A stretch of DNA of 46,192 nt from Parabacteroides sp. (lineage in GTDB: Bacteria; Bacteroidota; Bacteroidia; Bacteroidales; Tannerellaceae), in assembly GCA_022775005.1 (NCBI GenBank), contig JALFJR010000041.1:1-46192 (forward strand), in the 5' to 3' direction. The notes beneath the pieces were generated by a model. That model was not told the DNA's origin, searched no databases, and saw only the letters and a list, made by a program, of their open reading frames with translations. Positions within the stretch are counted from its first letter, which is position 1; each line of letters starts with the position of its first letter. The position numbers and the translations under genes were made by a program. This document shows, in pieces, positions 4,450-34,489 of this stretch.

Positions 4450-4462
4450 TGCCTAAAAAATC

Positions 4463-4582
4463 ATGGGCAATGCGCGATATTTTATTGCCCATGGTTTTCA
4501 AAAACGTTGCCCATGAAAAAATAAAATGTTGCCCATGCTTTTTTGTTGGGATGCCCATCATTTTTCAAAAAGACGGGCAACG
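4463..4582. repeat. Array A: six 8-bp boxes at an exact 22-bp period
   Basis: Boxes start at 4463, 4485, 4507, 4529, 4551 and 4573, each exactly 22 bases after the last. They read ATGGGCAA, TTGCCCAT (three times), ATGCCCAT and ACGGGCAA, so the outer boxes are inverted relative to the four inner ones. The 14-base spacers are AT-rich and partly alike (GGTTTTCAAAAACG, CATTTTTCAAAAAG). The array fills the gap between two convergent genes. It may act as a terminator-like folded element, but no family is recognised. The same unit recurs at 34051-34170. Confidence 0.85.
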
Positions 4583-4592
4583 TTTTTTGGGG

Positions 4593-29674: not shown

Positions 29675-32600
29675 ATGGCCTTTAGAAAAGAAAACAAGAT
29701 AAAGAGTAACTTTTCAAAAATCACGATCGGCCTGGCTTCTCCGGAGGAGATCCTGGAGAATTCCAGTGGCGAGGTTTTGAAGCCGGAAACGATTAACTAT
29801 CGTACGTACAAGCCTGAACGCGATGGTTTGTTCTGCGAGCGCATCTTCGGTCCTGTCAAGGATTACGAGTGCCATTGCGGTAAATACAAGCGTATTCGTT
29901 ACAAGGGTATTGTCTGCGATCGTTGTGGCGTTGAAGTTACGGAAAAGAAGGTGCGTCGCGAGCGCATGGGACACATTCATTTGGTCGTTCCTGTCGCTCA
30001 CATTTGGTATTTCCGTTCTTTGCCTAACAAAATTGGTTATTTGTTAGGTTTGCCGACCAAGAAATTGGACTCTATCATCTATTATGAGCGCTACGTGGTT
30101 ATCCAGGCTGGTGCAGCTGAGACGGTGGCTGATCTCGATCTCTTGTCTGAGGAGGAGTACCTGGACGTGCTCGATAGCCTGCCCAAGGAGAACCAGCTGT
30201 TGGAGGATACTGATCCCAACAAGTTCATCGCCAAGATTGGTGCTGAGGCTGTTTATGATCTGTTGGCTCGCTTGGATCTGGACTCTCTCTCTTACGAGTT
30301 GCGTCACCGTGCCAATACGGATAGCTCACAGCAACGTAAGAACGAGGCGTTGAAACGTTTGCAGGTAGTGGAGTCTTTCCGTGCCTCTCGCGGACGTAAC
30401 AAGCCGGAGTGGATGATCATGAAGGTGATCCCCGTTATCCCGCCTGAGCTTCGTCCGTTGGTTCCGCTGGATGGTGGCCGTTTCGCTACTTCTGATTTGA
30501 ATGATTTGTATCGTCGGGTGATTATCCGTAATAATCGTCTGAAACGATTGATTGATATTAAAGCTCCGGAGGTCATCTTGCGTAACGAGAAGCGTATGTT
30601 GCAAGAGGCTGTGGATTCTTTGTTCGATAACTCTCGTAAGTCGAGTGCGGTGAAGACGGATGCAAACCGTCCGTTGAAGTCCCTCTCTGATAGCTTGAAG
30701 GGTAAGCAGGGACGTTTCCGTCAGAACTTGTTGGGTAAGCGTGTCGATTATTCCGCACGTTCCGTTATCGTCGTGGGTCCGGAGTTGAAGATGCACGAGT
30801 GCGGTTTGCCGAAGAACATGGCGGCTGAGCTCTACAAGCCGTTCATCATCCGTAAGCTCATCGAGCGTGGTATCGTGAAGACGGTGAAATCGGCGAAGAA
30901 GATCGTTGATCGCAAGGAGCCGGTGGTTTGGGACATCTTGGAGTATGTGATGAAGGGTCATCCGGTGTTGTTGAACCGTGCCCCGACGTTGCACCGCTTG
31001 GGTATCCAGGCCTTCCAGCCGAAGCTGATCGAGGGTAAGGCTATTCAGTTGCACCCGTTGGCTTGTACCGCTTTCAACGCCGACTTCGATGGTGACCAGA
31101 TGGCCGTTCACTTGCCTTTGGGTAATGAGGCTGTTTTGGAGGCCCAGATGTTGATGTTGGCTTCTCATAATATCTTGAACCCAGCGAATGGTGCGCCGAT
31201 TACTGTGCCTTCACAGGATATGGTGCTTGGTTTGTACTACATCACGAAGCCGCGTAAGGGTACGTTGGGCGAGGGCTTGACTTTCTACAGCAACGAGGAG
31301 GCAACGATCGCATACAACGAGAAGAAGGTAGATATTCACGCTCCGATCCACGTGTATGTGGAGGATCTCGACGAGAATGGCCAGTTGGTTAAAAAGATGG
31401 TCGAGACCACGGTAGGTCGTTTGATGGTGAACGAGTATGTGCCGAAAGAGGTAGGTTACGTGAACGAGGTATTGGGCAAGAAGGCCTTGCGTGATATTAT
31501 CGGTCGGGTGATCAAGGCTTGTGGTGTGGCTCGTACCGCACAATTCTTGGATGACATCAAGAACTTGGGTTACTACATGGCCTTCAAGGGTGGTTTGTCA
31601 TTCAACTTGGCCGACGTATTGATCCCCGAGGAGAAAGAGGCTTTGGTACAGAAGGGTTACAACGCTGTTGAGGAGACGATGAACAACTACAACATGGGTT
31701 TCATCACTAACAACGAGCGTTACAACCAGATTATCGATACATGGACACACGTCAACAGCGAGCTGTCTAACGTTTTGATTAAGAAGCTGAAGGAAGATAA
31801 CGACGGATTCAACTCTATCTTCATGATGATGGATTCCGGTGCCCGTGGTTCTAAGGCGCAGATTTGTCAGCTTTCAGGTATGCGTGGTTTGATGGCTAAG
31901 CCGCAGAAGAGTGGTGCCGAGGGTGCGCAGATCATTGAGAACCCGATCTTGTCTAACTTTAAGGAGGGTCTTTCCGTGTTGGAGTACTTTATCTCTACCC
32001 ACGGTGCTCGAAAAGGTTTGGCGGATACCGCGTTGAAGACGGCCGATGCCGGTTACTTGACTCGTCGTTTGGTGGACGTTTCTCACGACGTGATTGTCAA
32101 CGAGGAGGATTGCGGAACTTTACGTGGTTTGGTTTGCACCGAGTTGAAGAACAACGAGGATGTGATCGCTACCCTGTATGAGCGTATCTTAGGTCGTGTC
32201 TCTGTGCATGACATCATCCACCCGATCACAGGCGAGATTATCGTTCGTTCCGGTGAGGAGATTCGTGAGGATGCAGCGCAGAAGATCGAGGAGTCTCCGA
32301 TCGAGAGCGTAGAGATCCGTTCCGTATTGACTTGCGAGTCGAAGAAGGGTGTTTGTGCGAAGTGCTATGGCCGTAACTTGGCTACGAACCGCATGGTTCA
32401 GAAGGGCGAGGTTGTCGGTGTCATCGCTGCCCAGTCTATCGGTGAGCCGGGTACGCAGTTGACCTTGCGTACGTTCCACGTCGGAGGTATCGCGTCAAAC
32501 ATCGCTACAGAGAATAGCTTGACTTCTAAATATGAGGGTACGTTGGAGATCGATGAGTTACGTACAGTAGAGGCCGTCGATGAGGTTTCAGGCAAAAAGC

Positions 32601-33967
32601 ACTTCGTCGTAGTAAGCCGTCTGGCTGAGTTGCGCATCGTGGATCCGAATACGAAGATTGTCTTATTGACCCACAACATTCCTTACGGTTCTAAGCTGTT
32701 CTTCGAGAACGGTGCGACGGTAAAGAAGGGCGACACGATCATCGAGTGGGATCCGTTCAACGCCGTGATTGTATCGGAGGTTTCCGGTAAGATCCAGTAT
32801 GAGAGCATGGAGGAGAACGTCACTTACAAGGTCGAGAGTGATGAGACGACCGGTTTGACCGAGCGTATCATCATCGAGTCTAAGGATAAGACGAAAGCGC
32901 CGGCTGCTCACATCATGGATGAGAATGGTAACTTCTTGAAGAACTACTCTTTGCCGTTGGGCGCTCACATCATGAAAGAGGAGGGTGAAATGGTGAAGGC
33001 TGGTGAGGTCTTGGTGAAGATTCCGCGTGCGGTAGGTAAGGCAGGTGATATCACCGGTGGTCTGCCCCGTGTCACTGAGTTGTTTGAGGCACGTAACCCA
33101 TCTAACCCCGCTGTGGTGGCTGAGATCGACGGTGAGGTAGGCTTCGGCAAGATCAAGCGTGGTAACCGCGAGATCACCGTTACCTCTAAGTTGGGCGAGG
33201 TGAAGAAGTATATGGTGCCCCTGTCCAAGCAATTGTTGGTACAGGAGAACGACTATATCCGTGCCGGTATGCCGTTGTCTGATGGTGCGATCACACCTTC
33301 TGATATTTTGGCGATCAAGGGTCCGACGGCAGTTCAAGAGTATATCGTGAACGAGGTGCAGGATGTCTATCGTTTGCAGGGTGTGAAGATCAATGACAAG
33401 CACTTTGAGGTCATCGTTCGTCAGATGATGCGCAAGGTAGAGGTTGTTGATCCGGGAGACACTCGCTTCTTGGAGCAGCAGGTAGTTGATAAGCTGGAGG
33501 TGATGGACGAGAACGATCGCGTATGGGGTAAGAAAGTGGTTACCGATCCGGGAGATTCTCAGACGTTGCAGGCCGGTCAGATCGTGACAGCACGTAAGTT
33601 GCGTGATGAGAACAGTATGCTGAAACGCCGCGACCTGAAGTTGGTTGAAGTACGTGATGCGATCCCCGCGACAGCCAACCAGATCCTGCAGGGTATCACA
33701 CGTGCCGCCTTGCAGACCAATAGCTTCATGTCGGCAGCCTCTTTCCAGGAGACTACGAAAGTGCTCAACGAGGCGGCTATCAACGGAAAGGTCGATCGCT
33801 TGGAGGGCTTGAAGGAGAATGTGATCTGTGGTCACTTGATTCCTGCAGGTACCGGTCAGCGTGAGTTCGATAAGTTGATCGTAGGCGCGAGAGAGGATTT
33901 CGATCGTATTTACAACAATCGCCGTGCCGTTGTCGATTTCAACGCCATGGATCGTGATGACGATTAA
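29675..33967 (+). CDS. rpoC: DNA-directed RNA polymerase subunit beta'
   Basis: 1430 residues. The N-terminal zinc ribbon is [10 protein letters not shown] then VCDRCGVEV. The catalytic magnesium loop is [13 protein letters not shown] near residue 470. The second zinc site is [15 protein letters not shown]. Bridge and trigger helices are in the usual order. The gene is complete and closes the transcription block with a strong terminator. Long open frames on the opposite strand are by-products of its codon bias. Confidence 0.99.
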
Positions 33968-33993
33968 AAACATCGGATCTCTATATAGAGAAG

Positions 33994-34024
33994 GAGCTCG
34001 GTAGGTTTACCGGGCTCTTTTTTT
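33994..34024 (+). terminator. Terminator of rpoC
   Basis: A 10-bp stem with one G-U pair (33994-34003 with 34008-34017), a GGTT loop and seven Ts. It is followed immediately by the repeat arrays. Confidence 0.93.
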
Positions 34025-34050
34025 ATCCAGCAGGATCGCTTAAAAATCCG

Positions 34051-34170
34051 TTGCCCATAAGCGCAAAATTCGTTGCCCATATAAATGAAAAACATTGCCC
34101 ATGGTTTTCTAAAAATACGGGCAACGTTTTCAAAAAGGATGGGCAATGTTTTCCGAAACCATGGGCAACG
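34051..34170. repeat. Array B: six 8-bp boxes at an exact 22-bp period, dyad-symmetric
   Basis: Boxes start at 34051, 34073, 34095, 34117, 34139 and 34161. The first three read TTGCCCAT. The last three read ACGGGCAA, ATGGGCAA, ATGGGCAA, so the array is a dyad of three forward and three inverted boxes. The 14-base spacers are AT-rich and share TTTTC and AAAA runs. The box and the period are the same as in array A, 29.6 kb away. It could fold as one long interrupted hairpin. Confidence 0.88.
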
Positions 34171-34197
34171 AAAAGCGATCGAAAGGCCTATAAAAAA

Positions 34198-34329
34198 TCA
34201 TGCCTACGGAAAATAAATCTCGTAGGCACGCGAAGGGTACTCGCATTATTATGCGAAGAAATTTCTGTTACTATGCGGCGAGATTTCCGTAGGCACGTGA
34301 TTCTATTTCCGTAGTAATGGAAATTTTTC
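34198..34329. repeat. Array C: six degenerate 22-bp tandem units
   Basis: Units start at 34198, 34220, 34242, 34264, 34286 and 34308. Most begin TCNGTAG or a variant (TCGTAGGCACG, TCTGTTACTATGCG, TCCGTAGGCACG, TCCGTAGTAATG) and end in a T- or A-rich half. The first unit has the box inverted (GCCTACGGA). The box differs from arrays A and B, but the 22-base period and the count of six are the same. There is no coding potential of note. Confidence 0.7.
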
Positions 34330-34489
34330 AAGCTGCTCAGAATGTTAAATTTCCAAAAATGCAAGCAACCCTATCGGGCAGATTGTATTTCAATGGAAAC
34401 TTTGAAGTAGGAAAGTTTGGTGGTCTCGACGATACCGACTACTTTTGCCCTTGTGTAGCGGTGGCTACATGTAACATGATGTGACATAA

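Follow-up and report, generated by a model that had tools for sequence, protein, structure and literature searches.

A dispersed intergenic element with phased 22-bp units, mostly six, downstream of rpoC and elsewhere in Parabacteroides genomes

Iterons, of plasmids and phages, are short boxes in several copies with a spacing near 22 bp; those of plasmids often have this period and number 5–7. The BrickBuilt MITE of Porphyromonas gingivalis is intergenic, is found in 19 copies in one strain, and is made of short tandem 23-nt units (PMC4596501). In these elements, direct repeats range in number from 1 to 22.8; a leader and a tail, both non-repetitive, and terminal repeats of IS5-like type are also present (PMC4596501). 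The available part of the same article also mentions 22-nt tandem repeats in P. gingivalis W83 (PMC4596501). Direct repeats of TAACTGA form many sets between genes, each with a few copies of the short word, and lie mostly just upstream of start codons in the genome described (abstract of PMC4679880). In the literature searched, which leaves most subscription journals outside its coverage, we found no description of the element reported here.

The array downstream of rpoC and its genome-wide family

The window is the whole stretch of DNA analysed, 46,192 nucleotides from Parabacteroides sp. (contig JALFJR010000041.1). The RpoC protein of this genome has 93% identity, over the best segment, to RpoC of Parabacteroides bouchesdurhonensis. 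The array begins 83 bp after the rpoC ORF, which ends at 33967, and spans 34051–34168; its six boxes, TTGCCC[A/G]T, are spaced by exactly 22 bp. Three forward (F) boxes are followed by three inverted (R) boxes, giving the order FFFRRR. Five of the six are exact matches to TTGCCCAT, and that at 34117 is a common variant. A sister array, with two variant boxes, is at 4463–4580. The features are listed below.

29675..33967, + strand: rpoC gene, upstream of the array
33994..34024, + strand: terminator-like hairpin and T-run between rpoC and the array, read by eye
34051..34058, + strand: box 1, forward, TTGCCCAT, from the word count in the window
34073..34080, + strand: box 2, forward, TTGCCCAT, from the word count in the window
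34095..34102, + strand: box 3, forward, TTGCCCAT, from the word count in the window
34117..34124, - strand: box 4, inverted, ACGGGCAA, the A/G variant, which reads TTGCCCGT on its own strand
34139..34146, - strand: box 5, inverted, exact TTGCCCAT word
34161..34168, - strand: box 6, inverted, exact TTGCCCAT word
34043..34176, unstranded: the complete rpoC element, composed of six 22-bp units and ending in an 8-bp half-spacer on each side
4455..4588, unstranded: sister element, boxes at 4463 (-), 4485 (+), 4507 (+), 4529 (+), 4551 (+) and 4573 (-), order RFFFFR

Note that element ends were set by the fading of flank conservation (85 arrays) and, in some copies, by the point where homology stops. 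The original prediction placed an array downstream of rpoC, with the same box, 22-bp period and six units recurring 29.6 kb away. Both statements are borne out. It also described a perfect three-plus-three dyad. This holds for box order but not for sequence, since the two halves pair at only 40 of 59 positions. The window's genome is referred to as G000, and two sister species as G043 and G050 (the latter 84% complete); L-numbers are locus labels of fetched stretches or contigs. The array at rpoC has the order FFFRRR in all three species, and the spacers differ. The sister element is between convergent ORFs and has an orthologue in G043 at L247.

Further along the window, at 34200–34331, there seems to be a second and degenerate 22-bp array. 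Its word is approximately GTAGTAAC or GTTACTAC, in both orientations, and it is apparently in the same gap as the rpoC array. The degenerate array is clearer in G043 (L248, 4163–4294); at 34200–34331 it did not pass a strict three-unit test. A search of Rfam 15, with positions 33900–34400 of the window only, gave best matches far under gathering scores.

Within the window, TTGCCCAT occurs 12 times; 100 shuffles gave 1.95 on average and never more than 5. Genome-wide, there are 300 box words, against 121 for a reversed-pattern control. For exact boxes paired 22 bp apart, the equivalent numbers are 30 and 0. With up to 2 mismatches allowed at this spacing, we found 142 forward pairs (control, 2), 39 forward-inverted places (control, 1) and 8 inverted-forward places (control, 2). 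Note that the last two patterns match both strands, and each place was counted once. Forward and inverted boxes share a single 22-bp grid; orientation is variable and register is constant. In the fetched stretches, arrays with at least three good boxes number 41 in G000, 40 in G043 and 20 in G050. The expectation of a genome-wide family was correct. An exact-pair search in 40 relatives found no match because both element-bearing sister species were outside that set; a wider search of the genus revealed them.

We counted units in 98 arrays, with three of 101 set aside at contig ends. Arrays with fewer than three good boxes were left out, as were loci with a single F-R pair. There were 67 arrays with six units, 18 with seven, six with five, five with four, and one each with three and eight. 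In a few cases, among them L117 and L126, the count is low because a 1-bp indel divides the array. The distribution is narrow, and 85 of the 98 arrays have six or seven units. We conclude that six is a strong mode, with exceptions, and not a law. Hence, of the predicted constancy, the recurrence of six stands but its invariance does not. Among the six-unit arrays (orthologues included), 42 have the order FFFFFR and six are of the FFFRRR, rpoC, type. The last box is inverted in 85 of 101 arrays. Most arrays have F first and R last; RFFFFR and FFFFFF forms also occur, and all units are alike. The single-pair loci, all in G000 (L130, L131, L134 and L139), are minimal two-box forms between genes.

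Copying and conservation in place

Spacers were compared across 12 FFFFFR arrays of G000. Those at the same position have a mean identity of 0.62, compared with 0.52 for other spacers, and none of 2000 within-array shuffles produced same-position likeness as good. One group of arrays (L125, L132, L141, L213, L230 and L253) is 85–94% identical at unrelated loci, and homology stops ~6–8 bp beyond the end boxes. For a second group (L114, L271–L273, L211, L212, L233 and L243), likeness extends into part of the left flank. Across 85 arrays, flank conservation fades ~8 bp beyond the end boxes. Judged from these patterns, the arrays are copies of one ~134-bp element with six whole 22-bp units. Since spacers are position-specific, and homology spans whole copies, six was inherited from one ancestral element. 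A counting mechanism is then unnecessary. The spacers also rule out a CRISPR array, where they should be unrelated and unique; here, spacers of different arrays are homologous by position.

The original prediction had proposed a mechanism that fixes six units. The 67 six-unit arrays fit such a mechanism. Conversely, 31 of the 98 arrays differ from six (even if a few low counts result from 1-bp indel splits), four fetched loci have only a single F-R pair, and position-specific spacers show copying from a single ancestor. Furthermore, array L232 of G043 is without one whole 22-bp unit found in its orthologue L138. We consider a mechanism of this type extremely improbable, and the claim was dropped.

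To compare copies in place, orthologous arrays were matched by both flanks, with the arrays themselves masked. This gave 37 pairs, which are non-independent as three-way comparisons of the same locus are included. At box positions 1–6 and 8, only 41 of 1533 sites (2.7%) were changed. The figure was 18.7% for box position 7 (A/G), 11.5% for spacers and 14.0% for flanks 8–60 bp outside. Pairing required array recognition in both species, a possible source of bias, but neutral evolution simulated under this requirement would give 11–13% box change. Among spacer positions, the middle and the outermost ones are more variable than the A- and T-tracts next to boxes. Indels were less frequent inside arrays (17 events, 3.8 per kb) than in flanks (45 events, 11.7 per kb). 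Orientation was unchanged in 219 of 219 boxes aligned without gaps, boxes cut by alignment gaps being excluded. In an earlier ortholog comparison, which dropped species-identical arrays and mixed in doubtful pairs, orientation was opposite for 4 of 260 boxes, and the lost unit accounts for one of these (L138/L232); the 37-pair set replaced this comparison.

We conclude that many copies occupy the same sites in three species, with boxes, spacing and orientation kept, while spacers and the A/G position drift. Running counter to strict upkeep of the grid are the 17 indel events within arrays and the pair differing by a whole unit. With words and spacing preserved at the same sites from species to species, these intergenic repeats are not just remnants of mobile DNA in decay.

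The copies are discrete and dispersed, with shared ends, as for a MITE. Mu and Tn7 have several transposase binding sites at each end. By analogy, the arrays might be MITE-like non-autonomous elements, with 22-bp units as sites for a trans-acting transposase, and forward first and inverted last units as terminal repeats. The closely similar copies at unrelated loci, with homology ending just outside the end boxes, and the usual inversion of the last box, are consistent with this. Conserved boxes could also serve a transposase. The conservation of boxes in place in three species counts against the MITE-like explanation. We also scanned 85 arrays for target-site duplication and found no clear one. 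The strongest signal, a 3-mer, overlapped the end of the element itself (11 compared with 4.2 expected). Small excesses of 4- and 5-mers, at offsets 12–13 and 8, involve 3–4 arrays and are perhaps orthologues counted repeatedly. Two array-less sites in G043, judged from match coordinates, were not clean empty sites.

We scanned the 77 proteins adjoining G000 arrays against Pfam (E 1e-5; proteins >900 aa were cut to 900). Matches to some family were found for 64, and 13 had none. There was one PDDEXK_2 match ("nuclease family transposase", L272:4161-5057) and, among the 77 with 13 matchless, no IS, DDE or integrase family. A ClpB neighbour cross-matches TniB via its AAA domain. On balance, the MITE-like explanation is doubtful. 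Separately, one neighbour (L144:3383-3823) is an HU-HIG DNA-binding protein.

For mobilisation by RAYT, as for REP sequences, we looked for Y1_Tnp (PF01797). There was no match in any of the three element-bearing genomes (G050 being 84% complete), and the family was present in two of 12 genomes searched (G056 and G089). This, together with the lack of excess pairing between F-R neighbours described below, led us to reject a RAYT-mobilised REP. The genomes G056 and G089 have five Y1_Tnp genes; 22-bp recurrences are near two of these (17 at L330 of G056 and 10 at L329 of G089). By eye, some Y1_Tnp genes in these genomes have apparent palindromic flanks of their own.

The spacing and copy number of the arrays resemble those of plasmid iterons. 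Hence, we also considered iteron-like chromosomal sites, decoy or accessory, that titrate a plasmid or phage initiator. Four viral contigs have three boxes at 22 bp (L333–L336), of which L336 is a simple repeat. In L333 and L334, the ORF that contains the three copies of TTGCCC[A/G]T at 22 bp is next to a gene for DnaB helicase. However, the spacers are unlike those of the arrays and the box-holding ORFs match no Pfam family. One array (L136) had no match among 72,556 plasmid and 50,697 phage records. The arrays adjoin ordinary genes, and no replication initiator family was found among the 77 neighbours, 13 of which lack any family match. We regard titration of an initiator as unlikely, and treat L333 and L334 as a lead toward iterons only.

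Base pairing, gene context and proposed role

The predicted structure of RNA from the + strand of the rpoC array is one long hairpin with interruptions (-47.5 kcal/mol, z -5.4). When both strands of four arrays were folded, the structures were better than shuffles (z -1.9 to -6.3; -5.4 and -6.3 for rpoC), and the final F-R pair is able to form a long stem followed by a T-tract. The arrays might, on this basis, be RNA elements: hairpin terminators or stabilisers of mRNA 3' ends. Pairing in these hairpins, however, gives no sign of coadaptation. For 75 distinct F-R neighbours, we counted 930 paired positions, compared with a mean of 943 for shuffled partners; 982 of 1000 shuffles were at least as good. 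In the rpoC dyad of the three species, the number of paired positions (of 59) is 40, 45 and 38 when both halves come from the same species, and 38–44 for mixed-species halves. Furthermore, a three-plus-three dyad is impossible for FFFFFR, the commonest six-unit order (42 of 67). We conclude that base pairing between boxes is not under selection. Hence, the long hairpin anticipated from the rpoC array is foldable, and predicted transcript structures do beat shuffles, but neither carries a sign of selection on pairing.

The terminator-like hairpin with a T-run, already upstream of the rpoC array, is also present by eye in G043 and G050; the hairpin at 33994..34024 is absent from the list given by a consensus scan. 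Its position, by eye in three species, weakens the case for the array as the rpoC terminator. An intrinsic terminator also fits poorly with arrays in divergent gaps and with unselected pairing. Taken together, we judge an RNA element quite improbable.

We determined the orientation of genes flanking arrays using mechanical ORF calls. With a second ORF caller (n = 33), 13 gaps with arrays were convergent, 12 tandem and 8 divergent. In the same stretches, other gaps were 31 convergent, 139 tandem and 27 divergent; for those of at least 100 bp, the numbers were 9, 39 and 13. The first ORF calls put arrays in 16 convergent, 13 tandem and 10 divergent gaps (39 rows with both neighbours called, in which array L122 was counted twice and the four single-pair loci were included). 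Thus, arrays are in excess between convergent genes, with no exclusive role at gene ends. Since 8 of 33 arrays are between divergent ORFs, a single gene-end role cannot fit all.

Words and two-turn spacing are conserved, the sequence in between drifts freely, and pairing is unconstrained. A row of protein sites has these properties. We therefore favour, with modest confidence, a reading in which the arrays offer phased sites to a DNA-binding protein that recognises specific sequence, and were retained after multiplying by copying. The site for the protein would be the TTGCCC[A/G]T box, with A- and T-tracts on its flanks. A spacing of 22 bp, or two helical turns, would place the sites on one face of the DNA. 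Judging from this spacing, binding would probably be cooperative, with the protein forming either a wrapped complex or a short filament. Because arrays are over-represented between convergent genes, the most likely effect would be architectural, with arrays acting between transcription units as a roadblock or boundary. The element has spread by copying, and its retention would have followed. A 134-bp duplex with six sites should be easy bait for a sequence-specific chromosomal protein in Bacteroidales.

The wider 22-bp pattern and known systems

A sequence model of the array matched 38 of 123 family genomes, with stricter filters. E-values below 1e-30 occurred only in G000, G043 and G050, and the next best was 1e-12. 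Among 20 weaker regions, in genomes of other species and genera of the family (L288–L307), 18 have a best period of 22 bp with other words, such as GATGCGCATC, CTTGCTTATG and GATTACCGATC, although the model itself favours this period. We therefore sampled nine genomes of the family in 40 stretches, each of 20 kb and chosen regardless of arrays. ORFs were masked, as a whole-locus period count at 80 rpoC loci had been swamped by the 3-bp periodicity of coding DNA. A cluster was called when an 8-mer recurred at p and 2p, on either strand, with p = 14–40.

In ~62 kb of noncoding DNA, 14 of 23 clusters were at exactly 22 (two of these, adjacent in G084, may be one), and nine were at the other 26 periods combined. 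Genomes picked for weak model hits contributed three (G089), three (G056), two (G084) and none (G014 and G023); those picked for long contigs contributed one (G016), none (G013), two (G019) and three (G022). Many of the sampled units appear palindromic, and words vary from array to array. An E. coli control gave no clusters at any period (7 kb noncoding). Similarly, 15 genomes from other families of the order gave none at 22 and one at 21 (22.5 kb). A set of 80 rpoC loci from named records, almost entirely Bacteroidota outside the genus, gave two clusters at 22 and five at other periods (33 kb). For 27 rpoC loci of the window's genus, there were none at 22 and two at 23 (8 kb). These data, from small samples, are suggestive of a 22-bp periodicity with varying words across the family. 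Other 22-bp recurrences, with unrelated words, are also present in G000 (L112:1345, L123:6776 and L132:2602); examples are GAGCCGGCTC and GAACCCCATAGTTC, with order F F R R for the latter.

Tentatively, we suggest that the TTGCCC element could be one dialect of an undescribed family-wide system, in Parabacteroides and related genera, of intergenic and mostly palindromic 22-bp units with differing words on a constant grid. Varying words and a constant grid are what we would expect if fast-evolving DNA-binding proteins, with a fixed two-turn footprint, organise chromosomes. HU-like proteins are expanded in Bacteroidota, and are one guess for the binding proteins. If the changing words and 22-bp grid prove general, a chromosome-binding system would have been missed by sequence searches, because the words change between genomes.

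Among elements already described, those closest to ours are BrickBuilt, REP/BIME, iterons and MITEs, and the first three fail a tested feature. Unlike iterons, the array is dispersed over the chromosome, and is found in both orientations; of the 77 neighbours, the 64 with Pfam matches include no initiator family. Like the TAACTGA repeats, it occurs between genes as many sets, each repeating a short word a few times (PMC4679880). Those repeats use a different heptamer, and the abstract gives no 22-bp grid (PMC4679880). For the tandem repeats of P. gingivalis W83, only the 22-nt unit length is comparable, since the available part of the article gives neither location nor structure (PMC4596501). 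Like REP/BIME sequences and their RAYT (Y1_Tnp) partners, ours are short, extragenic, multi-copy elements between genes (PMC3733652). They differ in the exact 22-bp grid, the non-palindromic box, and the lack of a Y1_Tnp match in the three element-bearing genomes. The likeness to BrickBuilt is in the intergenic location and the short tandem units with conserved and variable positions (PMC4596501). Conversely, compared with BrickBuilt as described in that part of the article, the units here are 22 bp, mostly six in number, and in both orientations on one grid; no leader or tail was seen, and flank conservation fades ~8 bp outside the end boxes. Hence, we do not assign the arrays to BrickBuilt.
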